Position numbers and translations under genes: made by a program. The notes under the pieces were generated by a model, which was not told where the DNA came from, ran no database searches, and saw only the letters and a program-made list of their open reading frames with translations. Source: Gemmatimonadaceae bacterium (GTDB lineage Bacteria; Gemmatimonadota; Gemmatimonadetes; Gemmatimonadales; Gemmatimonadaceae). From it: a stretch of 56,043 nt of DNA. Position 1 is the first letter of the stretch; every line of letters starts with the position of its first letter. Positions 1,588-52,979 of this stretch are shown here, piece after piece. The DNA lies in contig JAICKA010000011.1 of assembly GCA_025928185.1 (NCBI GenBank), positions 1 through 56,043 of the forward strand, in the 5' to 3' direction.

Positions 1588-4011
1588 GTGCGGCTGACAA
1601 TGCAACGCCTGCGTCTCGCGGCGCGCTCGTTCCTCCGCACGCCCGGGTTCACCGCGATCGCCGTGCTGTCGCTCGGACTCGGCATCGCGCTCAACACGAC
1701 GATGTACGGCGTCGTGGACGCGATGTTGTATCCTGAGATCGATGCACGGGCGCCTGAGCAGCTGTACGCGGTGAGGGCCCGTGGCGACTTTCGCTACGTC
1801 GTCGACCAGCGAACGCGGACCGCACTCCTGCGATCGGGCTTTCACGCATACGACGCCACCGGCGCGACGGCGGTCGGGGGCAGCGGTTACATCGAATCGC
1901 ACGTCGTTGGGTACGGCCGCCGCATGCAGCAGGCGCGCGCAACGACGGTTGCTCCAAACTATTTCGAGGTGCTCGGCGTGCGCCCGCTAATTGGGCGCGC
2001 GCTCACGACGTCAGACTACACGAATGGCGCCAGCCCGCTGATGATCAACGACGGTCTGGCCAACACACTCTTTCGCGACGGCGAATCGCCCCTTGGAAAG
2101 GTCATCGATGTCGACGGTACGCCCCACGTCGTAGTTGGCGTTCGTCGCACGCCGCCTGGGAGCGGCAACGCACTGTGGATGCTGCCAGCGGCTGGCCACG
2201 CGAATGACGTCGGCATCGATCTCATTCGCCTTCGCGACGGCGCTTCGCTTCGTCAAGCCGAGAGCGAGCTGGCCGTGCTCTCGGCGCGGTTTGCTCAGCT
2301 CGCCCATGTAGCTCCGAAGTTCGCATGGTTCGAGCTGCGACCGCTCGCCGGCTCGCAGTTCGGGTTCAACCACTTCGACTTTGCGTTGATCGCCTCGGTG
2401 CTGGCGATCCTGCTCATCGCGTGCGCGAATTTGGCCAACCTGCAGCTCGCGCGTGGCATCGGCCGCTCGCGCGAGCTGGCCGTGCGCTGCGCGCTTGGCG
2501 CATCGCGCCGGGACATCGTCGTGCAACTCATGCTCGAGAGCGCGTTGCTCGCGTTCGCCGGATTGTCGGTGGGCGTGCTACTCAGCGAATGGGGCGTCCG
2601 CCTCGCCCAGTCGCGAATTCCACCCGTCGTTGCCGACTACGTGATCGCGCCGCAGATGAGCTGGCGCGTGCTGACGTTTGCCGGAATCGCCTGCGTGCTC
2701 TGCGTGATGATCATTGGGCTCGTCCCGGCACTCCGCGTATCGCGCGTGGATCCCAACGAGCTTCTCAAGTCGGGCGCCGGCACCGGCGCCAATCGAAAGC
2801 ATCGCCGACAGTACGCGGTCATGGTCGCCGTCGAGATCGCACTCTCACTGGCGCTGCTCAGTGGAACGTCGATCGTCGTTCAGGCGACGATGGCGCTAGA
2901 GCAGACGCGAATGGGCTACGATCCCAAACCGATGGCCGTCGCGACGCTCGCGCTGCCGGTCAAGCACGACACGACGGTCTCGTACGTATCGCTCGCGAAC
3001 GCGTTGCTGGCGCGCGCGCGTTCGATGCCGAATATCGGCGATGCGACCGTCACGATGTCCGGCAACCCCCATGACGCAGTCACCGCGAACGACCCGAGTG
3101 GCGGCCCGCGCGAGTTCCCCGCGCCGATGTACCGATATCTGATCGTGACGCCGTCGTTCCTGCGGACGTTCCATCGACGGGTCATCGAAGGCAGGGATTT
3201 CCTCGACGGTCTTCCCGTCCAACCCGAAGTCATCATCGATCGGGTCACGGCGCGCTTCCTCTGGCCCAACGCCGATCCGATCGGAGCGCAGATCAAGCTC
3301 GGAAGTGCCGCGTCCGGCAAACCATGGGTGCGCGTTGTCGGCGTCGTCGACACCGACACCGCCGGCACGCTGTTCGATCCGGCAAACGCAAGCTTCATCA
3401 GGGCGACGTCGCTCGGCGCGATCTACTATCTCCCCACGGCGAGTGACAGCGTGCGAGTGCGCGGGATGCTCATGGTCGACGTCGTTACGCGAACGCAGTC
3501 CGCGCCGGGTCGGCTGCCGGTGGCGCTGCTGCGGGCGCTGCACGACGTGCCGCCGCTGCGAGCAGTGGGCGCGGAGTCGATGGAGGATCACCTGTCCATC
3601 ACGCGCGAGCGCCAGGCCCACGAATTCGTCGCCAGCACGTTCGTGGTCTTTTCCGCGCTCGCGCTCGGTCTTGCCGCCGTCGGCATTTACGGCATCGTCG
3701 TGCACTCGATCACGGAGCGCCGGCGTGAGCTGGGCGTTCGCATCGCGCTTGGCGCAAGCACGCGGCAGGTACTCGAAGCCGTGCTCCGCGAGGGCAATGT
3801 TGTCGCGCTCGCCGGAATTGCGCTCGGCCTGCTGCTCACGAAGCACACCGCCGATTGGCTGTACGCGTTCACACTGGAGGACGCCAAGTACAACGCGCCG
3901 TTGTTCGCCGCCATGGCGGCGTTGCTGTTCGTCGTCGTGGTGGTTGCCGCGCTGCTGCCCGCGCTCCGCGCCACACGCATCGATCCCGTCGAGTCACTTC
4001 GCAACGAGTAA
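1588..4011 (+). CDS. ADOP-type FtsX/MacB-like permease, copy A
   Basis: An 807-aa membrane protein of the acidobacterial duplicated orphan permease type. One N-terminal membrane segment (about 19-42) is followed by a MacB-like periplasmic domain, a first FtsX block starting near residue 263 (LIACANLANLQLARGIGRSR, then three more membrane segments), a second periplasmic domain, and a second FtsX block from about 685 (GIYGIVVHSITERRRELGVR) to the end RIDPVESLRNE. No ABC ATPase gene is adjacent, which is why these are called orphan; MacB-type relatives use ATP-driven conformational change to move substrates in the periplasm. The GTG start at 1588 is favoured over the ATG at 1600 because it aligns the N-terminus residue for residue with copy B. 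Confidence 0.88.
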   Translation: MRLTMQRLRLAARSFLRTPGFTAIAVLSLGLGIALNTTMYGVVDAMLYPEIDARAPEQLYAVRARGDFRYVVDQRTRTALLRSGFHAYDATGATAVGGSGYIESHVVGYGRRMQQARATTVAPNYFEVLGVRPLIGRALTTSDYTNGASPLMINDGLANTLFRDGESPLGKVIDVDGTPHVVVGVRRTPPGSGNALWMLPAAGHANDVGIDLIRLRDGASLRQAESELAVLSARFAQLAHVAPKFAWFELRPLAGSQFGFNHFDFALIASVLAILLIACANLANLQLARGIGRSRELAVRCALGASRRDIVVQLMLESALLAFAGLSVGVLLSEWGVRLAQSRIPPVVADYVIAPQMSWRVLTFAGIACVLCVMIIGLVPALRVSRVDPNELLKSGAGTGANRKHRRQYAVMVAVEIALSLALLSGTSIVVQATMALEQTRMGYDPKPMAVATLALPVKHDTTVSYVSLANALLARARSMPNIGDATVTMSGNPHDAVTANDPSGGPREFPAPMYRYLIVTPSFLRTFHRRVIEGRDFLDGLPVQPEVIIDRVTARFLWPNADPIGAQIKLGSAASGKPWVRVVGVVDTDTAGTLFDPANASFIRATSLGAIYYLPTASDSVRVRGMLMVDVVTRTQSAPGRLPVALLRALHDVPPLRAVGAESMEDHLSITRERQAHEFVASTFVVFSALALGLAAVGIYGIVVHSITERRRELGVRIALGASTRQVLEAVLREGNVVALAGIALGLLLTKHTADWLYAFTLEDAKYNAPLFAAMAALLFVVVVVAALLPALRATRIDPVESLRNE

Positions 4012-4023
4012 GGCTCTAATCGC

Positions 4024-6453
4024 ATGCGCATTTCACGTCAGAGCATCCGACTCGCGATTCGCTCCTTTCTCCGCAATCCGGGCTTCACCGCCATCGCGGT
4101 CCTGTCTCTCGGACTCGGCATCGCGCTGAACACGACGATGTACAGCATCATCGACGCGCTGGTGAATCCACGAATCGACATGCGCGCGCCGAACCAGCTG
4201 TATCGCCTCGACGTGTACGGCGACCTGCATCATCGCGTAGATGACCGAGCAATCGCCAAGCTCCTGCACTCCGGATTGCACAGCCTCGACGCGGTCACCG
4301 GCTCGCGTCGGAAGTCCTTCCTGAGTGGCGATGCCATCGAGTACAAACGCCGGTACGACCAGGGCATGACCGTCGTCGTGGCGCCGAATTATTTCGACGT
4401 CCTTGGCGTTCGACCCGTGGCCGGACGGATCTTCACGAATCTCGATTACACCAGCAACGCGAACGATGCGGTGATCAGCGATCGTCTGGCCGGATCGCTC
4501 TTTCCCGATGGCAACTCTCCGATCGGCAAGGTCATCGACTTGAATGGCGAACCGCGCACCGTGATTGGTGTGCTCGGGCGCGCGGCGCACTTTCCCGGCG
4601 ACCTCACCGACGTGTGGATCCTGCCAGGAGCCGGCGAGGCGCACGCGATCCCGCTCACGCTCGTCCGGCTCCGCGATGGGGCCACGATCGATCAGGCGAA
4701 CAGCGAAATGGCCGTGCTCGCGGCGCGCTTCGCTCAACTCGCAGGTGAGACACCCAAATACGTCCGCTTCCAACTGAAGCCCGCGGTGCAGCATCAGTTC
4801 AGCTACAGCCGATTCGATTTTGCGCTCGTCGCATCGGTGATCGCGATCCTGCTCATCGCCTGCGCGAATCTCGCCAACCTGCAGCTCGCGCGCGGCATCG
4901 GGCGCTCGCGAGAACTTGCCCTTCGCGCCGCACTCGGTGCATCGCGCGCCGACATCATCGCGCAATTGATGCTCGAGAGCGCGCTGCTTGCGATCGGCGG
5001 CCTCGTGGCCGGCCTGATGCTCAGCTTTTGGGGCATGCGCCTGCTGAGATCGCGCATTCCGCCCGTCATCGCCAACTACAGTGTGGATCCGCAGACGAGC
5101 TGGCGCGTCCTCGTGTTCGCGATCGTCGCCTGCCTGTCGTGCGTGATTTTCATTGGGCTCGTTCCGGCAATACGCGTGTCGCGGGTCGACCCGAACGAAT
5201 TGCTCAAGTCAGGCGCGGGCACCGGCGCGAGTCGCGGGCATCGCCGGCAATACGGCATCATGGTGGCGGCGCAGATCGCAGTATCTCTCGCCCTGCTCAG
5301 TGGCGCGGCGCTCGTCGTCCGTGCCGCGCTCGCGTTTCAGGCACCGGCCCTCGCATTCGACACCTCGCCGCTGTCGATTGCTTCCGTCGTCATGATCCCG
5401 CCGCACGACACGACGGTATCATACGCCACAGTGCTGAATCAACTCGTGTCGCGCACCCGTCGCTTTCCGGATGTCGTGGATGCCGCGGCGTCGACCTCGA
5501 GCCGCGTGGTAGGCGACGCGATCACGGCCAGCGACCCGAGTGGCGGCCCCCGCGAGTTCGACGCGCCAATGTATTCGGTACAGGTCGTGTCGTCGTCCTA
5601 CCTTCGCACGATTCGCCTGCCGCTGGTCAAGGGTCGTTATTTCCTCGACGGGGTGGCGGCGCAGGGCGAGGTGATTATCGACAAGCAGACGGCGCGCGCG
5701 CTCTGGCCGGGGGCCGACCCGATCGGCGCACAGATCAAATTGGGCAGTCCGGAGTCGAACCTACCGTGGGTACGCGTGGTCGGCGTCGTGGAGGATGCCG
5801 CCGGGCGTTCGCAATCCGACTTGTCGGAGGCCAGCAGCGTTTTGTCGCATCGGATCGGCGCGATCTACTATCTGCCGAGCGGGTCCGACAGCCTTCGAGT
5901 GCACCAGTCGGCGGTCTACACCGTCACAGTGCGCGCCAAGTCGGATCCACGTCGCATGCCCGTCACGCTGCTGAGCCATCTCCACGGTATGCCGCTCATG
6001 CGTGTCATCCTTGCCGAATCGTTCGATGAGCGGTCGGCGCACGGCGCGACACGTCGGCGACACGATTTCGTCGCGACGATGTTCTCCGTGTTCGCAGGGC
6101 TGGCCCTCAGTCTCGCCGCGCTCGGCATCTACGGCATCGTCGTGCACTCGGTCGCCGAGCGCCGTCGCGAGCTGGGCGTGCGCATCGCCCTCGGCGCCAG
6201 CGCACGGCATGTGCTGCACGCGGTGCTCCGCGAAGGCAACGTCGTCGCGCTCTCCGGCATCGCACTGGGGCTGCTGATCACCAAATACACCGTGTCGTGG
6301 CTACACGCGTTCACGCTCGAGGAAGCCGAGTACGATGCGCCGACGTTCGCCGCGATGGCGATCGTGCTGTTCGCCGTCGTGGTGCTCGCGGCGCTCCTCC
6401 CGGCGCTGCGCGCCACCCGCATCGATCCGGTGGAGTCGCTCCGCAACGAGTGA
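4024..6453 (+). CDS. ADOP-type FtsX/MacB-like permease, copy B
   Basis: An 809-aa paralogue of the preceding gene, separated by 12 bases. The same order of segments is visible: an N-terminal helix (FTAIAVLSLGLGIALNTTMY, identical to copy A over this stretch), a periplasmic MacB-like domain, an FtsX block near residue 265, a second periplasmic domain, a second FtsX block and the same RIDPVESLRNE ending. The periplasmic domains differ more than the membrane blocks, as expected if the copies have diverged in what they recognise. The pair looks like a tandem duplication, and the two proteins may work together. Substrate unknown; no ATPase is encoded nearby. Confidence 0.88.
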   Translation: MRISRQSIRLAIRSFLRNPGFTAIAVLSLGLGIALNTTMYSIIDALVNPRIDMRAPNQLYRLDVYGDLHHRVDDRAIAKLLHSGLHSLDAVTGSRRKSFLSGDAIEYKRRYDQGMTVVVAPNYFDVLGVRPVAGRIFTNLDYTSNANDAVISDRLAGSLFPDGNSPIGKVIDLNGEPRTVIGVLGRAAHFPGDLTDVWILPGAGEAHAIPLTLVRLRDGATIDQANSEMAVLAARFAQLAGETPKYVRFQLKPAVQHQFSYSRFDFALVASVIAILLIACANLANLQLARGIGRSRELALRAALGASRADIIAQLMLESALLAIGGLVAGLMLSFWGMRLLRSRIPPVIANYSVDPQTSWRVLVFAIVACLSCVIFIGLVPAIRVSRVDPNELLKSGAGTGASRGHRRQYGIMVAAQIAVSLALLSGAALVVRAALAFQAPALAFDTSPLSIASVVMIPPHDTTVSYATVLNQLVSRTRRFPDVVDAAASTSSRVVGDAITASDPSGGPREFDAPMYSVQVVSSSYLRTIRLPLVKGRYFLDGVAAQGEVIIDKQTARALWPGADPIGAQIKLGSPESNLPWVRVVGVVEDAAGRSQSDLSEASSVLSHRIGAIYYLPSGSDSLRVHQSAVYTVTVRAKSDPRRMPVTLLSHLHGMPLMRVILAESFDERSAHGATRRRHDFVATMFSVFAGLALSLAALGIYGIVVHSVAERRRELGVRIALGASARHVLHAVLREGNVVALSGIALGLLITKYTVSWLHAFTLEEAEYDAPTFAAMAIVLFAVVVLAALLPALRATRIDPVESLRNE

Positions 6454-7174: not shown

Positions 7175-7377
7175 CCGCCAAGCTCGACAAGTCCATCAAG
7201 CGTGAGCTGGAGATCGACGGAAAGCTCTACACCATCGCGATCGCGCCCGACGGCCTGAAGGTGACGGAAAAGGGACGTCGCAACGGCCAGGAGCTCTCCT
7301 GGCGTTCGATCATCAACGGCGACGCGTCCCTGAATCAGAACCTGAGCGCGTCCGTCGACGCGTCGTCCGGCGAGTAG
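7171..7377 (+). CDS. Conserved-looking 68-aa protein, function unknown
   Basis: A 68-aa protein with a lysine-rich start (KLDKSIKRELEIDG) and a beta-hairpin-like core (YTIAIAPDGLKVTEKGRR, then QELSWRSIING). The ATG overlaps the stop of the DUF3565 gene by ATGA. Its last 65 bases overlap, tail to tail, the end of the DNA ligase gene on the other strand. Its alternating-strand core and translational coupling make it a convincing gene, and its position next to the end-joining operon is suggestive only. No enzymatic motif is visible. Confidence 0.65.
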   Translation: MTAKLDKSIKRELEIDGKLYTIAIAPDGLKVTEKGRRNGQELSWRSIINGDASLNQNLSASVDASSGE

Positions 7378-8416
7378 CACCGGTTTTCGGCGGAGCACGG
7401 CGCGCCGCCTCGCGGCGCGCCTCCGCCACCTGTGACAAGGTGCACTGCGACGGCGCTTTCTCCGGTCGCCAGCGCATGAACTTCGTGCCGTGACGAAACC
7501 GGCCGCCGGTGAAGTGATCGTACTCCACCTCGACGACGAGCTTCGGTTCGAGCGGCACCCACTCGCTTGATCGCTTCGTTGACCACCGGCTCGGACCGCC
7601 GGGCGCGCGACCGCTGAATCCCTCGCCGCCAGCGAGCTTCTCCACCATCGGCGTGATTCGCTTCCGCTCCTCCGCCGTGAAGCTCGACGTGAAACCGACG
7701 TGGTGCAGCAATCCGTCCTCGTCGTACAGTCCGAGCAGAAGCGAGCCGACCAGCTTGCCGCGCGTGGCGTAGCGAAAGCCGCCGACGACGCAGTCGGCGG
7801 TGCGCTTCCGCTTGATCTTGACCATCGCGGTCCGCTCGCCGGTCGCATACGGCACGTCGAGCCGCTTGGCCATCACGCCGTCCGTCCCTTCGCGACCCGC
7901 GAGCCACTGTCGCGCCTCGGCAATACGCCGCGTGGCGGGGCTGAGCATCACCCCATGCTGTTCTTTCAGCTGCGTGGCGGCGAAGGCCTCGAGCCGCTCG
8001 CGCCGGTCGGACAACTGCTTGCCCGTCAGATTGGTGCCGCGCGCGTCGACCAGCAGGTCGAAGACGAGGAACACCGCCGGCGTTTCGTTGGACAACTTGT
8101 CGATGCGGCTCTGCGCCGGGTGGATGCGCTGGAGCAACGCGTCGAACGAGAGGCCGTCGGGGGAAGGTACGACAATTTCGCCGTCGAGCACGAACCGCTT
8201 CGCGCGCAACGCACGCAGCGCGGCGACGACTTCCGGAAAATAGCGCGTCAGCGACTGGTCGGACTTGGACCGCAGCTCGACGGTGTCCCCATCACGAAAC
8301 GCTAAACAGCGGAAGCCGTCCCATTTGGGCTCGTACTGCCATTCCGGTCCCGTCGGGAGCGCCGCCACGACACGCGCTTCCATCGGCGCGTAGCCGGGTG
8401 TGACGGGAAGCGTCAC
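7313..8416 (-). CDS. ATP-dependent DNA ligase, LigC-like
   Basis: A 367-aa ATP-dependent DNA ligase. The adenylation motif EPKWDGFR places the catalytic lysine at K31; motif III (LVFDLLVDARG), motif IV (GTDGVMAKRLD) and motif V (MVKIKRKRT) follow, then an OB-fold domain. LigC enzymes seal nicks as a back-up in bacterial end joining and repair. It is the last gene of the ku-ligD operon; its ATG overlaps the stop of the 144-aa gene. The last 20 residues are very rich in Arg, Ser and Thr and may be a DNA-binding tail; this tail is the part that overlaps the opposing 68-aa gene. Confidence 0.9.
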   Translation of the reverse strand: MTLPVTPGYAPMEARVVAALPTGPEWQYEPKWDGFRCLAFRDGDTVELRSKSDQSLTRYFPEVVAALRALRAKRFVLDGEIVVPSPDGLSFDALLQRIHPAQSRIDKLSNETPAVFLVFDLLVDARGTNLTGKQLSDRRERLEAFAATQLKEQHGVMLSPATRRIAEARQWLAGREGTDGVMAKRLDVPYATGERTAMVKIKRKRTADCVVGGFRYATRGKLVGSLLLGLYDEDGLLHHVGFTSSFTAEERKRITPMVEKLAGGEGFSGRAPGGPSRWSTKRSSEWVPLEPKLVVEVEYDHFTGGRFRHGTKFMRWRPEKAPSQCTLSQVAEARREAARRAPPKTGATRRTTRRRTRSGSDSGTRRR

Positions 8417-8847
8417 GCCTCCGCGTCCTCGTCATCGGCCGCACCTTGCGGTCCATCCGCCTCGTCAGGTCCGTCCGCGTCACAGGCGGCCTGGCGCTCG
8501 GCCGCGGTGCGCCGTCTTGCCTGGCCGGCGCTGGCCGGCGGTTCGAGGCGGAGCTCGGTCTGCGCGGTGAGCAGCCGCTCGCCGCCGGCCGCGAGCTGCC
8601 GCATGCGATGTCGGAACCGCAGCAACTGCACCGGCGCGCGGTAACTCTCGCGCGGCGCGCGCGACAGCATGAGCAATTCCTCACGCACCTCGCGCGGCAG
8701 GTGCGACGCCGTGCGCTTGCGCAGCAGCGATGTGAGCCGCAGCGCATCGCGCCCCAGCACGGCGCGCTCGATGTCGTCGAGGTAGCCGAGAAAGCTCGTA
8801 AGGCCGCTCGCGCCGCTGCGCGCACGCGCTCCCTCGTGCCTAGCCAC
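8413..8847 (-). CDS. Unknown 144-aa protein inside the end-joining operon
   Basis: I do not recognise this family. The protein has a predicted helical N-terminal part (LTSFLGYLDDIERAVLGRDALRLTSLL begins near residue 16), an Arg-rich middle (SRAPRESYRAPVQLLRFRHRM) and a low-complexity Ala/Asp/Glu-rich end. It is fused tightly into the operon: its start overlaps the end of ligD by 8 bases and its stop overlaps the ATG of the second ligase by 4 bases. That spacing implies co-translation and suggests an accessory role in end joining, perhaps as a bridging or regulatory protein. The Ala/Arg-rich composition means the C-terminal third may be disordered. Confidence 0.65.
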   Translation of the reverse strand: MARHEGARARSGASGLTSFLGYLDDIERAVLGRDALRLTSLLRKRTASHLPREVREELLMLSRAPRESYRAPVQLLRFRHRMRQLAAGGERLLTAQTELRLEPPASAGQARRRTAAERQAACDADGPDEADGPQGAADDEDAEA

Positions 8848-10882
8848 GGGCGAGCACTCCGCGCAGCGAATTCGGCTTCGTCATGCCCTTTGCCCACAGA
8901 TCGCCCCTGGACCGCACGCGCTCGAGCACCGAGTCCATGGTGAAGTCGGCGGGATCGAGCTGTTCGTTCACCTCGGACCACTCGAGCGGCGTGGAGACGG
9001 TCGCCCCCGGCTTCGCGCGCACCGAGTACACGCCGGCCACCGTTTTGCCGCGAATGTTCTGGAGAAAGTCGACGTACACAGCGCCCGCCGCACGCGACTT
9101 CACCCATCGCTCGATGGTCGCGATTTTCGCGTGCGACTCGGCCACCATGGTCGCCACGAGCTCGGCCACCATGCGCGCGCCGTCGTTCGGCACGTGCGGT
9201 TCGAGCGGCACCACGATGTGCAGTCCGCTCGCGCCGGAGGTTTTCGGCACCGCGTGCAGGTCGAGCGAGTCGAGCACCTCCTTCACCGCAAGCGCGACCT
9301 CGACCACGCGCGCGAACTTCGCCCGCGGTCCGGGATCGAGGTCGATGATCGCGTAGTCGGCGAACTGCACCGAGCCGACGCGCGAGTGCCACGGATCGAT
9401 CGAGATCGCGCCGAGCTGGGCGACGTAGAGCAGCGTGGCGAGATCGCCGCCGATCAGGCGGGCCTGCGTCGTGAGTCCTTCGTCGGCGACCGATTCCACG
9501 CGTACCGACGCCGGCGGATCGCTCGGCGCGCGCTGCTGATAGAACGCCTTGCCGCGCACGCCATTCGGGTAGCGCTTCATCACCAGCGGGCGATCGGCGA
9601 TCGCCGGCAGGAGCAACGGCGAGATGCGAGCATAATAGCGCAGCAGGTCGCCCTTGGTCTGGCCGGTCTCCGGAAAGAACACCTTCTCGAGTTTCGAGAC
9701 TTCTAATGTCCCGGTCGGCAGCGCAAGCTCGCCCTCGCCCCGGCGATCCTCGATGTCCTGCAACTGCGCGACGATTGCGTCGATGTCGGCAGACGAGTTG
9801 CTCCTGGAGCGCGACGACTTGCGGGTGCCCGCCTTTTTCGCTTTGGGGCGGCGACCGTCGTGCGCCGCGCCGCCGCGGCCGTTCGCGCTTGCCCGCCGCG
9901 GGTCCGCGGCCAGCGATTCCGGCTCGTGCACCACTTCGCGCGGCTTCTTGTCGTCGCGCACGCCGACGAACACCGGCTGTCGCAGCTTTCCGTCGGCCGT
10001 CCATTCATTGAACTTGATCTCGACCACGACCGATGGCCGCGTCCAGTGAGGTGCCTCGTTGGTGCGCGGCGTCGTCGTGAACGGCGATGATTTGCGCTCG
10101 ACGCGGTGAAGCCGCTGGTACATGTCGCTCAACGACTGCCTGCCGAAGCCGGTGCCGGTATGGCCGGCATACACCAGCCCGCCCTCGGCGTTGTAGTAGC
10201 CGAGGAGAATCGCGCCAATGTGCTGGCGCGAGTTGCGCGGCTCGGTCCAGCCGCCGACGACGAACTCCTGTCGATGCTCGATCTTGAGCTTGAGCCAGGC
10301 GCGCGAGCGGTGTCCCGCTTCATAGGGCGCGTCGGCCTCCTTGGCGATGATGCCTTCCCAATCGTTCGCCCGCGCCGTGCGCAGCAGCGCGGCGCCGTTC
10401 TCACTCACGTCACTGAGCCGCAGCGCGTTGGAACGTCCCGGGGGTTGGAGGAGCGCGGCGAGATGTTTTCGCCGCACGCGCCACGGCTCAGCGACGAGTG
10501 AGTGCTTTCCATCGACCAGCATGTCGAACAACATCAACGCGGCCGGCGCGCTCTGCTCGTGCGCGGCGATCGCGGTTCGATCCGTCACGTGCATCCGGCC
10601 CTGCAATTCCTGAAAGCGCGCCGGCGAGTCGCCGTGCATCGCGACGATCTCGCCGTCGACGACGAACGGGCGCCGCGCGCGCTTCGACAGCGCCTGCAAC
10701 GCCTCTGCGACTTCCGGAAACTGCCGCGTCTTGTCCAATCCATTCCGGCTCAGCAGCCGCACCGTGCCCGGCGTGGCGAACGCCAGGATGCGGATGCCAT
10801 CGTACTTCGGTTCGAACACCCAGCCCTCGCCACGCGGCAGCTCCGTGCCGATCGTGGCGAGCATTGGGCGCGGTTCGGTCAT
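8840..10882 (-). CDS. ligD: LigD: ligase-polymerase of non-homologous end joining
   Basis: A 680-aa multifunctional end-joining enzyme. Residues about 1-310 are an ATP-dependent ligase: EPKYDGIR puts the nucleophile at K26, with LMLFDMLVDGK, EGIIAKEADAPYE and LKLKIEHRQEF as later motifs. A Lys/Arg/Ser-rich linker (about 330-390) joins it to a primase-like polymerase domain beginning near LEVSKLEKVFFPE; the metal-binding IDLDPG lies around residue 512 and the nucleotide-binding KTSGASGLHI around 545. The 3'-phosphoesterase domain found in mycobacterial and Pseudomonas LigD is absent, so the order is Lig-Pol. The polymerase fills gaps and adds ribonucleotides at breaks; the ligase seals them. 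ku lies directly upstream with a 4-base overlap. Confidence 0.93.
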   Translation of the reverse strand: MTEPRPMLATIGTELPRGEGWVFEPKYDGIRILAFATPGTVRLLSRNGLDKTRQFPEVAEALQALSKRARRPFVVDGEIVAMHGDSPARFQELQGRMHVTDRTAIAAHEQSAPAALMLFDMLVDGKHSLVAEPWRVRRKHLAALLQPPGRSNALRLSDVSENGAALLRTARANDWEGIIAKEADAPYEAGHRSRAWLKLKIEHRQEFVVGGWTEPRNSRQHIGAILLGYYNAEGGLVYAGHTGTGFGRQSLSDMYQRLHRVERKSSPFTTTPRTNEAPHWTRPSVVVEIKFNEWTADGKLRQPVFVGVRDDKKPREVVHEPESLAADPRRASANGRGGAAHDGRRPKAKKAGTRKSSRSRSNSSADIDAIVAQLQDIEDRRGEGELALPTGTLEVSKLEKVFFPETGQTKGDLLRYYARISPLLLPAIADRPLVMKRYPNGVRGKAFYQQRAPSDPPASVRVESVADEGLTTQARLIGGDLATLLYVAQLGAISIDPWHSRVGSVQFADYAIIDLDPGPRAKFARVVEVALAVKEVLDSLDLHAVPKTSGASGLHIVVPLEPHVPNDGARMVAELVATMVAESHAKIATIERWVKSRAAGAVYVDFLQNIRGKTVAGVYSVRAKPGATVSTPLEWSEVNEQLDPADFTMDSVLERVRSRGDLWAKGMTKPNSLRGVLARG

Positions 10883-11721
10883 GCGCTCTTACGCCGCTTT
10901 GCCGTTCGCGTGTGATGCGCGCGCGTCTTTGTCGTCCGCCCGCGCCGCTTGCCCATTTCCAGACTCTCCTGCAGCCGAGCCATGAGGTCGACCACCTGCG
11001 TGCTCTCGCGCTCCTCCGGTTCGGCCACCTCGATCTTCTTGCCCTTCATTTTCGCGCGAATGATCTTGCGCAGATTCGCCGCGTAGTCGTCGGTGTACTT
11101 GGACGGATCGAACGCCTGCGTCAGGTTGCCGACGAGCTGCTCGGCCATCTGCAGCTCCTGCGGCCGCACGCCGCTGTCGCTCGGGAACGAGAACTCGCTC
11201 GTATCCACCAGCTCGTCGGCGAAGCGCATGATGTCGAGCACGATCGCGTCGCCCACCGCCTTGACGCCGGCCAGGTGCAGCGCGTTCGAGCGCATCGTGA
11301 TCTTGCCAATGCCCACGGTTCCGGTGCGCTTGATCGCTTCGCGCAGCAGCGCATAGGGTTTTTCACCGCCCTTCGCCGGCACCACATAGTAGGGCGTCTC
11401 GAAGAAGCGTGGATCGATTTCGTCGGCGCTGGCGAAGTCGAGAATCTCGATCGTCTTCGACGATTCGATCGCTGCCGCCTTGAAGTCCGCGTCCGTCAGG
11501 ACGACGAACTTGCCTTTCGAGTACTCATATCCCTTGACGATGTCCTTCCACGGCACCGTCTCGCCTTCCTTCTGGCAGACGCGCTCGTACCGGATCGGCG
11601 AGAGATCCTGCTTGTGCAGCAAGCGGAAGCTGATGCGCTCCTTCGCCTGGATCGCCGTGTGCAGTCGCACCGGGATGTTCACGAGGCCGAACGTCAGAGC
11701 CCCTGTCCAGACTGGCCGCAT
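10879..11721 (-). CDS. ku: Ku homodimer, non-homologous end joining
   Basis: A 280-aa bacterial Ku. It starts with the family signature WTGALTFGLVNIPVRL, contains the HKQDLSPIRYERVCQKEGE segment and the GYEYSKGKFVVLTD core, and ends with a lysine/arginine-rich tail (MGKRRGRTTKTRAHHTRTAK). Ku threads onto double-strand break ends and recruits LigD through its C-terminal region; the basic tail is typical of Ku proteins that also bind internal DNA. It is the first gene of the operon, with its stop overlapping the ligD ATG. Upstream lies the DnaA-box-like cluster, so its promoter must be in or beside that region; I did not find a convincing -35/-10 pair. Confidence 0.95.
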   Translation of the reverse strand: MRPVWTGALTFGLVNIPVRLHTAIQAKERISFRLLHKQDLSPIRYERVCQKEGETVPWKDIVKGYEYSKGKFVVLTDADFKAAAIESSKTIEILDFASADEIDPRFFETPYYVVPAKGGEKPYALLREAIKRTGTVGIGKITMRSNALHLAGVKAVGDAIVLDIMRFADELVDTSEFSFPSDSGVRPQELQMAEQLVGNLTQAFDPSKYTDDYAANLRKIIRAKMKGKKIEVAEPEERESTQVVDLMARLQESLEMGKRRGRTTKTRAHHTRTAKRRKSA

Positions 11722-11812
11722 CGCTACTCCGAATCATCGAGAGAAAGTCTCGTCGCGCCCCTGGTGACGCGTCGTAGGAGGCTCCCGATGCAACTGCGGT
11801 GCTATCAACAGC

Positions 11813-12020
11813 GTGTCCACAATGGCGTGTGGATATCACCCGGTTTTCGACACGCTTTCGCGTTCTCGAACGGATGCGCACTCCGCAAAATGCAATGCAC
11901 AGTTTTCGATTTGGTACACATCTGTCCACAGTTGTTATCCACAGCATCTCGCATGGGCTTTGTGTCGACGCGGTGCGCACTTAGCGTTTTATCGACATAT
12001 GTCCACATGCGCTATCCACA
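11813..12020. promoter_or_regulatory. Cluster of DnaA-box-like sites, candidate origin or DnaA-control site
   Basis: Against TTATCCACA I find one perfect site at 11935-11943 (+) and three with one mismatch: ATATCCACA at 11828-11836 (-), TTATCGACA at 11989-11997 (+) and CTATCCACA at 12012-12020 (+). Three more share the core TGTCCACA used by high-GC actinobacterial boxes: 11813-11821, 11922-11930 and 11999-12007, all (+). At random, sites with at most one mismatch are expected about 0.04 times in 200 bases on both strands; four are present. The cluster sits in the 458-base gene-poor stretch between ku and the next gene. dnaA, dnaN and gyrB are not in the window, so an origin is a hypothesis, with ku-operon regulation as the alternative. 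Confidence 0.6.
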
Positions 12021-12080
12021 GTAATGACAACGACTTATGGAAAACTTTTCTATTGCGCTTTGAATCAGTGTTTTCTAGGT
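12021..12080. other. AT-rich stretch next to the DnaA-box cluster
   Basis: 39 of these 60 bases are A or T, in a region otherwise strongly GC-rich. It abuts the last DnaA-box-like site, the position expected for a DNA-unwinding element. It could instead be promoter sequence for the following small gene. The remaining 12081-12179 holds nothing I recognise. Confidence 0.5.
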
Positions 12081-12179
12081 TGCCCTCCCTTCCTGTTGCG
12101 ACGTCGTCTGCAAGCGCTCTTCGCACGTTCATCGACGGCTTTCCCCCCACTCGCGACCATGCATCTCGTCAGTTGCGCC

Positions 12180-12485
12180 ATGCCCCAGGAGCCTCTCGAA
12201 GACGCGCCGCGTTCGGCGCTCCTCGCCGACCGCGCGGACGCGGATCGGTGGGACGGCTTCTGGTCGCAGCAGTCGGACGCGTACTATGTCCGCCGCACTG
12301 CGGCCGATGGCGGCGTCGAATGGTACAGTCTTTCGGATGACGACGAGCCCGCGCACGTCGGCGAGACGCGCGTACTCACGCTGCGCACGCCGACGCGACC
12401 GCATGCGCGCGTCAGTGTCGTCGTGGCGCAATCACCCGCGGGCCGGCGCATGCTGGTGGGAAGCGCCGGACGGTCGCACCGGTGA
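12180..12485 (+). CDS. Hypothetical 101-aa protein
   Basis: Unrecognised. From the ATG at 12180 the protein begins MPQEPLEDAPRSALLADR and has a compact beta-rich middle (GFWSQQSDAYYVRR, then GGVEWYSLSDDDEP, then TRVLTLRTP) and an Arg-rich end. No signal peptide or enzyme motif is seen. The frame stays open upstream, with ATGs at 12159 and 12024, but the latter would read through the AT-rich stretch and gives an atypical sequence, so the start is uncertain. No clear ribosome-binding site precedes any of the three. It converges with the minus-strand gene ending at 12497. Confidence 0.45.
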   Translation: MPQEPLEDAPRSALLADRADADRWDGFWSQQSDAYYVRRTAADGGVEWYSLSDDDEPAHVGETRVLTLRTPTRPHARVSVVVAQSPAGRRMLVGSAGRSHR

Positions 12486-12496
12486 GCGACGTGCGC

Positions 12497-13390
12497 TCAG
12501 GCGCTGGGTTCGGGAAGCAGCTCGAGCTGCGCCGTGCGCTGCGCGACGACGCGGCGAGACGCTTCGTACAACCAATCGAAGCTCGCGTCGAGTCGCGGAT
12601 CACCGCCGGCGGCATCGCGCGCCAGCGTGAAGTGACCATACAGCCGTGCATCGATTCGCTCGGGCTCTCCGTGCAAGCGGAACAGCAGCAGCTCGGTGGC
12701 GGCTTCGGTGAGATGGAACAGCGTGAACAGATAGAAGCGCGTGCGCGCCTCGTCCGCCTCCGACACGGTGGCGAGAAACGCCGGCTCGCGGACGGGCCGC
12801 TCTTCGCGAATCGATGCGACGAGCTCCATCGCGTGCTGCAGGCCGGACGGTCCGGCGCCGCGCAACAGATGCGTCCACAGCTCGGCGACGCGCCGCAGAA
12901 TCACAATGTCCCAGCGCGCCTCGTCTTCGCGCGCCGGAAAGAGTACGTCTTCGTGCGCGCGCAACCAGTTGCGGAACTCCGTCTGCTTGTGCCCGAGCTG
13001 CGCGAGACCGGCGAGGAGCAGCGTGCGATAAAGCGCGGCGACCCGCTCGTTGCGTTCGATCGGCAGCGCGGCGGTGAGAATGAACGCGCGGTCGGCGCCG
13101 GACTCGATGTGTGCGGTGCGTTGCGCTTCCTGTTCGCCGGAGAGTCGTGCGGTGGGCGACGCGGCGCCTTCGAAGTCGAGCCATTCGCTGGCGGCGATCA
13201 CGTAGGCGCCGGCGAGCGGCACGACGAATTCCGGAACGTCCGCCTCGACCGGCATCGGTGCGCCGGTCGCCATACGCGTCAGCACGCTCATCGCGTACTG
13301 CACGGCTGCGGCGCGGTCCTCGGGCGTGACCACCTTGACCGCCCAATGGCGATCGAGCGTGTCGAGTGCGTTCGGGAAGGGCGTGGTCAT
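12497..13390 (-). CDS. Hypothetical 297-aa mostly helical protein
   Basis: Unrecognised. It reads as a soluble, largely alpha-helical protein with many Ala/Leu/Arg heptad-like stretches, for example LAGLAQLGHKQTEFRNWL, WDIVILRRVAELWTHLL and RFYLFTLFHLTEAATEL. No signal peptide, no membrane segment and no metal-binding or nucleotide-binding motif is visible; cysteines are absent. The codon use looks like that of its neighbours. It faces the gene at 13498 across a 107-base divergent gap that could hold both promoters. A helical-repeat scaffold is possible but not claimed. Confidence 0.6.
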   Translation of the reverse strand: MTTPFPNALDTLDRHWAVKVVTPEDRAAAVQYAMSVLTRMATGAPMPVEADVPEFVVPLAGAYVIAASEWLDFEGAASPTARLSGEQEAQRTAHIESGADRAFILTAALPIERNERVAALYRTLLLAGLAQLGHKQTEFRNWLRAHEDVLFPAREDEARWDIVILRRVAELWTHLLRGAGPSGLQHAMELVASIREERPVREPAFLATVSEADEARTRFYLFTLFHLTEAATELLLFRLHGEPERIDARLYGHFTLARDAAGGDPRLDASFDWLYEASRRVVAQRTAQLELLPEPSA

Positions 13391-52183: not shown

Positions 52184-52464
52184 GCGGCCGGCGCGCCTCG
52201 AATGGCGCCGCCGCAGTGACCGTAGGCTTTCTTGGCGGTCTACTGTTAGGCGCCTTCGCGTGGAGCGGTCAGATTCGACGCTCGCGCCGGGATCTGTTCA
52301 GTAAGAGTCCGGTGCGACGGTTTGCCGCGCTCGGTTATCTTAGCGGACAGCCCGGGCTCGACAGCGCTCGACTTCTCACCGACTACGTCGGCTGGGAGCG
52401 TCACCCGGTGTTACGACGCCGCGGCGAACGCCTCCTTCGCCGCATGCAGACCCACCTCGAGTAA
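52180..52464 (+). CDS. Small membrane protein between recR and mglB
   Basis: A 94-aa protein beginning with GTG that overlaps the recR stop (ATGTGA). It has one hydrophobic helix (AAVTVGFLGGLLLGAFAW, about 10-28) and a basic, Arg-rich cytoplasmic part (SRRDLFSKSPVRRFAALGYL). The sequence is not a recognised family. Coupling to recR and closeness to mglB suggest it belongs to this transcript, with unknown function. Confidence 0.55.
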   Translation: MSGRRASNGAAAVTVGFLGGLLLGAFAWSGQIRRSRRDLFSKSPVRRFAALGYLSGQPGLDSARLLTDYVGWERHPVLRRRGERLLRRMQTHLE

Positions 52465-52496
52465 TACCGTCCCACCCCGATCAGGACAGGAGCGCG

Positions 52497-52979
52497 ATGC
52501 CGGTTGGCGCAGCCAGTTGGTCCTTTACCGAAGACGATTTTGCGGCGATCACGCGCGCGCTCGAGCGATTCCTCACCGACTGCAATGCCCGGTGCGCGCT
52601 GCTCGTCGATCGCACGGGACAGCTCGTCGCCACCGTCGGCGAGCGGCCGAGCTTCGATCCGACCGCGTTCGCCACGCTGACCGCGGCCGATTTCAGCGCC
52701 AACGACCAGCTGGCGAAGCTGATCGGCGAGAGCGATTTCAACTCGCTCTTCCATCAGGGCGAAAAGGAGTCGATGTACCTGGCCGACATCGCGCGGCGCG
52801 TCATTCTGGTCGTCCTGTTCGACAACCGGACCACCCTTGGACTCGTCCGGCTCAAGATGCGCCAGACCGTAAATGAGCTTGCCCAGTTGTTCGAGACCGT
52901 TTTCTCGCGCGCGGCAGGAGCCGCGGGTCCCAGTATTCTCGCCGGCGCCGACGACGAGATCGACAAGCTGTTTCAGTAA
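52497..52979 (+). CDS. mglB: Roadblock/LC7 protein, MglB-like
   Basis: A 160-aa Roadblock/LC7 domain protein, the GTPase-activating partner of MglA in polarity control. Visible: RALERFLTDCNARCALLVDR, the VDRTGQLVATVG strand pair, SANDQLAKLIGESDFNSLFH and IARRVILVVLFDNRTTLGLVR. AGGAG lies 5 bases before the ATG. It directly precedes mglA by 12 bases, the standard arrangement. No motility genes lie in the window. Confidence 0.85.
   Translation: MPVGAASWSFTEDDFAAITRALERFLTDCNARCALLVDRTGQLVATVGERPSFDPTAFATLTAADFSANDQLAKLIGESDFNSLFHQGEKESMYLADIARRVILVVLFDNRTTLGLVRLKMRQTVNELAQLFETVFSRAAGAAGPSILAGADDEIDKLFQ

Follow-up and report, generated by a model that had tools for sequence, protein, structure and literature searches.

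Seven DnaA-box-like sites are packed into 208 bases of non-coding DNA (11813-12020) in a Gemmatimonadaceae genome. We argue that this cluster is probably a conserved array bound by DnaA, which would serve as the upstream control region of a promoter, and that it is most likely not the chromosomal origin. The array is strongly conserved in relatives and as a rule there is one per genome. The window, by which we mean the whole stretch of DNA analysed (56,043 nucleotides), is the complete contig C86 of a draft genome (288 contigs, 3.71 Mb in total).

The DnaA-box array

The array lies between ku and a small gene that we call gene S. It starts with an inverted pair of box-like sites, GTGTCCACA at 11813-11821 on the forward strand and ATATCCACA at 11828-11836 on the reverse strand. 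The pair occurs at the same 15-base offset in all 6 genomes of the genus, with an extra mismatch in some copies. All of the remaining sites are on the forward strand. Box A (11935-11943) is an exact TTATCCACA, and the box-like site CTGTCCACA is 13 bp ahead of it at 11922-11930. Box B, TTATCGACA (11989-11997), is 54 bp past box A, and box C, CTATCCACA (12012-12020), is 23 bp past box B. Each of these two has one mismatch to TTATCCACA, as does ATATCCACA of the inverted pair. Box C also has a box-like site 13 bp ahead of it, ATGTCCACA at 11999-12007. Three TGTCCACA cores are supplied by GTGTCCACA (11813), CTGTCCACA (11922) and ATGTCCACA (11999). A preliminary description of this DNA had reported one exact box, three single-mismatch boxes and three cores, and all of them are where it placed them. 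The AT-rich stretch that it saw next to them is also there. Bases 12021-12080 are 65% A+T versus 33% for the window as a whole, and this is rare, since only 10 of its 55,983 60-base segments reach 65%.

The same description held that such a cluster would hardly arise by chance. The rarity stands, and the expectation of 0.04 sites given for it corresponds, by our arithmetic, to equal base frequencies. In shuffles of the 56 kb window the mean was 2.04 sites with no more than one mismatch, which is about 0.008 per 208 bases. Across the 3.71 Mb genome there are 107 sites with at most one mismatch to the 9-mer, 3 of them exact, versus 129 for a reversed control pattern, so the genome as a whole is not enriched for the 9-mer. 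Among 100 listed of the 107 sites, the array is the only place with at least 3 sites per 300 bases, and there are two other pairs of sites, on C79 and C122. The pattern of two direct boxes 13 bp apart matches in 11 of 99 genomes, and its control in 3. In the 6 genus genomes and the two genomes of genus g20 the matches are at the array only, and in G018, G084 and G019 they are away from it. An Rfam scan of 11500-12700 gave nothing useful.

Two further elements follow the boxes on the same strand. The motif CAACGACTTA, which is CAACRACTTA-like, is at 12028-12037, exactly 7 nt past box C. A promoter-like element, TTGCGC-N17-TAGGTT, spans 12053-12081. A strict sigma-70 promoter and terminator scan found none in 11600-12600, and the promoter pattern is weak by the E. 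coli consensus.

Neighbouring genes

The preliminary description named ku and genes of unknown function as the neighbours, with dnaA elsewhere, and this is what we find. The gene ku (PF02735) is at 10879-11721 on the reverse strand, and dnaA is on contig C225. Two LigD-type genes stand in tandem by ku at 7313-10882, one with ligase and primase-polymerase domains and the other with ligase domains only. Further out, at 1588-6453, there are two consecutive large permeases, of FtsX/MacB type by eye.

Gene S (12159-12485, forward strand) encodes 108 aa beginning MHLVSC. It has no family in Pfam or NCBIfam and matches one weak unknown family in PHROGs. Its structure model is poor (pLDDT 60). The gene S family was found in 19 of 98 genomes and 7 of 35 genera, with lengths of 104-139 aa, and it adjoins gene X in 17 of the 19. 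Its product is small, as is that of sda.

Gene X (12497-13390, reverse strand) encodes 297 aa, is predicted to be all-helical and runs towards gene S and the array. Homologs are in 23 of 99 genomes and 10 of 35 genera. Matches in Pfam and NCBIfam are weak only. Its model has a pLDDT of 80, and a PDB fold search found no match at E <= 0.001. Neither gene X nor gene S has a hit below E 0.2 among PDB sequences.

Conservation in the family

Gene X was used to find the array in relatives. The 23 of 99 family genomes with gene X gave 21 testable loci from 8 genera. One of the two dropped loci is at a contig end (L071). The other (L082, in G020) matched 16 of 27 box letters, as many as its reverse strand did; genes X and S are present in G020, but no array is recognisable. 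In all 21 testable loci the array is beyond the 3' end of gene X and has the layout A-(52-56)-B-(22-23)-C, when best-fit spacings of 50-57 (A to B) and 21-24 (B to C) were allowed. The boxes match at 21-25 of 27 letters, versus 15-18 on the reverse strand. A CAACRACTTA-like motif is exactly 7 nt past box C in 21/21, and TTGNNN-N17-TANNNT (N18 once) is 31-35 nt past box C in 21/21, versus a background of 0.18 per kb per strand. It must be said that the motif and promoter patterns were composed after viewing the sequences, and that the 21 loci are related and do not count as 21 independent events.

A search that does not depend on gene X gives a similar picture. Of 288 genomes of the order, 34 contain the signature TNTCNACA-N7-CAACRACTTA, each a single time, and none contains the control. 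This family, with 179 genomes in the set, accounts for all but one of the 34. The exception, G149, belongs to a different family, shows no additional box on the same strand within 3 kb and has the appearance of a chance match. The exact signature misses known variants (G005, G024, G026 and G071), so 34 is an undercount. In G028 and G053 the signature adjoins gene S, and gene X was not found there. Contig C37 of G014 has two copies of gene S 6 kb apart (52432-52785 and 58103-58491) with the exact signature beside the second, so this genome seems to carry two arrays. A match to the core element in G014 (L019) was rejected as chance.

The gene on the ku side varies while the array stays. Within the genus, ku is beside the array in 5/6 genomes, and by eye it is also there in one locus each of g20, g10 and g3. 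The sixth genus member, G005, has kept the array with a different gene and no ku ortholog there. Among the 10 loci viewed by eye, the corresponding genes are ATP-grasp-like in g22 and g24 and kinase-like in g4 and g27. Conservation upstream of ku had been proposed as a check on the cluster. The array is indeed kept in relatives, but ku itself is missing from beside it in G005 and in the loci viewed from four other genera.

A probable DnaA-controlled promoter

We argue that the fixed order of boxes, motif and promoter pattern across genera, amid changing surroundings, has the look of an upstream control region. In all 21 loci the boxes stand at a promoter pattern, as judged by comparison, and where gene S exists this pattern reads towards gene S and away from ku. 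The preliminary description offered a DnaA-titration locus and a DnaA-regulated ku promoter among its readings. The conserved array, its spacing and the promoter pattern support a locus that DnaA binds or controls, but one with the opposite direction, in which the promoter pattern faces gene S (12159-12485) and not ku. A promoter for gene X was also considered and was dropped because gene X runs towards the array.

The scenario would be as follows. DnaA would load on boxes A, B and C and on the flanking sites. By a hand count in the window the three boxes are centred near -149, -95 and -72 of the expected transcription start. Their spacing is about 5 and 2 helical turns, which would place a bound complex on roughly the same face of the helix. 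The complex could then act on RNA polymerase at TTGCGC-N17-TAGGTT, either as an activator or as a repressor, and another factor perhaps binds CAACRACTTA. The output would depend on how much DnaA is present or on its nucleotide state. It would drive gene S where that gene is present, and elsewhere a short transcript or a tiny frame. Binding may additionally remove part of the free DnaA pool.

Gene S is unlikely to be the only purpose of the array. It was not found in three genomes of g4 and one of g27, although the array and promoter pattern remain there. The search scored at most 44 candidates per genome, so its absence from g4 and g27 is not proved. By eye, g4 has a tiny frame downstream of the promoter pattern.

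The array and the chromosomal origin

One can imagine that the array is the working chromosome origin in the window's genus, displaced from dnaA. The preliminary description suggested a displaced oriC, and it was also our first reading of the skew plots. A cluster of boxes with adjacent AT-rich DNA is present, as at an origin. The cumulative GC-skew minimum of the fetched stretch is at the array or within about 5 kb of it in the window, G002, G003 and G004. In G005 the skew passes from about zero to positive at the array, with the minimum one 5 kb bin off. Third-position GC skew of genes on both strands goes up across the array in 5/5 genomes (10/10 comparisons, 60 kb). Regression t values at the array are 2.3, 3.6, 4.3 and 4.6 in four long contigs, where it ranks 29 of 324 (G003), 5 of 123, 2 of 136 and 1 of 77. 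A plain regulatory site would not predict this turn. However, these congeners share synteny and are not independent evidence for it.

The skew is also not peculiar to the array. On the same four contigs t drops to between -3.2 and -4.4 elsewhere. Third-position skew rises at dnaA too (6/6), with regression t there of 1.3-1.6. On the dnaA contigs of G003, G002 and G005 the skew of the fetched part reaches a minimum of its own, on the dnaN side of dnaA and about 23-51 kb away from it (10-25 kb on C9, 30-35 kb on C11 and 235-250 kb on C17 respectively). None of these minima is exactly at dnaA-dnaN, and the one in G005 is near a parS-like site.

Skew along the whole chromosome was assessed in two closed relatives of a single contig each, G026 and G051, which were sampled at 42 and 20 stretches and given a two-arm fit. 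The fitted origin is at 0.16 Mb in G026 and 0.28 Mb in G051, with dnaA at 0 and gene X at 1.63 and 1.82 Mb. Squared errors in G026 are 0.194 at the best position, 0.207 at dnaA and 0.226 at gene X; in G051 they are 0.106, 0.109 and 0.136. When the data were resampled, the fitted origin came to lie less than 0.3 Mb from gene X in 6 of 100 cases for G026 and 0 of 100 for G051. The skew check proposed with the preliminary description thus comes out divided: there is a local turn at the array in the window's genus, but there are similar swings elsewhere and the skew of the two closed relatives points away from it. In Gemmatimonadota the terminus has been placed roughly opposite the predicted origin, from origin prediction and GC skew (PMC11237797). 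Our literature search, which covered its sources in part, found no paper on the DnaA boxes of Gemmatimonas.

Genes of the window's genus were matched at >=50% identity to the sampled part of G026. Of 18 matched G003 genes, eight (75-90 kb from the array) fall in a single G026 block at 1.32-1.34 Mb, another lies at 1.64 Mb and 9 are scattered. Of 12 matched G002 genes, eight (44-55 kb from the array) fall in that block, and 4 are scattered. On the G003 contig that carries dnaA, all 13 matched genes have their counterparts at 0-43 kb in G026. This implies that the array in the window's genus is most likely in the same neighbourhood far from dnaA.

The region between dnaA and dnaN is a better candidate for the origin. 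By eye, dnaA is preceded by rpmH-rnpA and followed by dnaN. In 6/6 genus genomes the spacer has conserved CCACA boxes, then a CTACTAC...CTACTAG run and AT-rich DNA. The box immediately ahead of the CTACTAC run is a variant in G001, G003 and G005. G026 has the same design. Boxes, DnaA-trios and AT-rich DNA in this arrangement are the layout of the basal unwinding system (PMC6669920). DnaA-trios are 3'-GAT-5' repeats, read as CTA on the box strand, and our strict pattern for them has a background of 0.027 per kb per strand. It was found in 11 of 18 dnaA-dnaN regions. It missed three genus members (G001, G003 and G005) that were recognised by eye in the alignment, and the trio is absent from 4 of the 18 (G018, G008, G048 and G020). 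Next to boxes A-C there is a trio in 0/21 array loci; the one stray CTGCTG, in L066, is inside gene S.

The parS-like sites, with at most one mismatch, also side with dnaA. They are 20-41 kb from dnaA in G026, G051, G098, G018, G072 and G027, and about 22 kb from it in G005. None is on the array contigs of G000-G005, and G000-G004 have none at all. There are some strays: G026 has three more one-mismatch sites elsewhere, and G051 has one at 1.70 Mb, 119 kb from the array. G024 has an exact site, which is not counted among those near dnaA.

What led us to drop the displaced origin were the positions of the parS-like sites, the alignment of dnaA-dnaN and the skew sampled in the two closed relatives. 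Together with the missing trio, these make it most likely that the array is not the chromosomal origin, and we regard a working origin at this place as highly improbable.

Less likely readings: titration, another regulator and ku

The array could instead be a titration or nucleotide-state locus of the datA, DARS or B. subtilis cluster type, where DnaA binding is the function and the promoter is incidental. The array persists where gene S was not found, and by eye it is better conserved than gene S. In G026 it holds the only TTNTCCACA pair closer than 1 kb among 45 sites. In 123 sampled stretches (2.44 Mb from six genomes) there are six places with at least 3 TNTCCACA per 300 bp, and five of them are the array (G003, G002, G004, G005 and G051). 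The sixth is a looser group of three in G026 at 1633361-1633575 (L159 13361-13575), 2.7 kb from the array of that genome. The distance from array to dnaA is 35.2% of the chromosome in G026 and 38.6% in G051, and a conserved relative distance is typical of E. coli datA and DARS (PMC4585315). These are two closed genomes of one genus, so local synteny could explain the agreement. Against this reading, the motif and promoter pattern keep fixed spacing in 21/21 loci, a constraint that titration by itself would not require. The datA and DARS loci are reported to suffer when they are transcribed through (PMC5010248). E. coli boxes are enriched near oriC (PMC12371093), so the position of the array far from oriC also argues against titration as its main role. 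We consider titration unlikely as the explanation of the array. A titration or datA/DARS-like role is possible, perhaps as one that was added on.

Two other alternatives keep the promoter but change the regulator or the target. A different regulator with a similar site might bind the boxes and control the same promoter. In many loci box B is TTATCGACA or has some other GACA form, and CAACRACTTA does not resemble a DnaA box. However, there are seven DnaA-box-like sites here including an exact TTATCCACA, and exact or one-mismatch 9-mers stand just before dnaA in many of 18 dnaA loci and in the dnaA-dnaN spacer as well. This makes another regulator very unlikely. The preliminary description also suggested a DnaA-regulated ku promoter. 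The inverted pair does start 92 bp ahead of the ku start codon, and ku adjoins the array in most of the genus. The evidence does not support this as the main role, because the array survives without ku in G005 and in the loci viewed from g22, g24, g4 and g27, which have other genes, and its promoter pattern points away from ku. We dropped this reading for that survival and give it almost no weight. A DnaA-controlled promoter facing away from ku is the explanation that we prefer.

Comparison with known systems

DnaA boxes at a promoter are known from E. coli nrdAB and dnaA, B. subtilis sda and Caulobacter gcrA (PMC8203912), and here they are at a promoter pattern. At DnaA-controlled promoters like that of nrdAB, the response depends on how much DnaA there is or on its nucleotide state, and the sda promoter is bound by DnaA (PMC8203912). 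Unlike those promoters the array has strict spacing and an extra fixed motif across 8 genera, and its regulation is predicted. As in E. coli datA, DARS1 and DARS2 (PMC4585315, PMC5010248), it is a compact conserved cluster that lies away from oriC, and its relative distance is similar in the two closed genomes. Unlike them it is coupled to a conserved promoter pattern. The DnaA-box clusters of B. subtilis also lie outside the origin and can hold free DnaA (PMC5295017). There are six of those clusters (PMC5295017), whereas the array is one per genome as a rule and is not near the origin. It shares with oriC and the basal unwinding system a cluster of boxes by AT-rich DNA (PMC6669920), but it differs from oriC in having no DnaA-trio adjoining the boxes and in the better candidate at dnaA-dnaN.

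A second DnaA-related gene was seen in these genomes. In G000 a gene on C78 at about 17.7-19.6 kb (L002 1492-3408) encodes 638 aa with two DnaA-type AAA+ domains (PF00308 twice). The best 25 of its 27 matches include no DnaA DNA-binding domain. It directly follows a gene that by eye encodes an MglA-type GTPase. All 6 genus genomes have two-domain matches, as do 8 of the 12 other family genomes that the search covered. The gene is about 62-63 kb from the array in G026 and G051 and about 108 kb from it in G098. The protein could be an Hda-like regulator of DnaA.

Implications

Replication control is known mainly from a few models (E. coli, B. subtilis and Caulobacter), and the array is a case of strict geometry in a different phylum. 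There is also a caution for origin prediction in draft genomes. Dense DnaA boxes with AT-rich DNA, and even a local turn in GC skew, may sit far from the origin and mislead. The array offers a ready test of how DnaA is read out to transcription, and it points to an uncharacterised small gene. We put forward a wider proposal, although we doubt it somewhat more than we believe it. Many Gemmatimonadaceae may have a dedicated switch that reads DnaA, as a rule one on each chromosome and distant from the origin, made of the array, a CAACRACTTA co-factor site and the promoter. Through this switch replication status would set how strongly gene S is expressed, and the gene S products would be a new family of small cell-cycle proteins, a counterpart of Sda with an independent origin.
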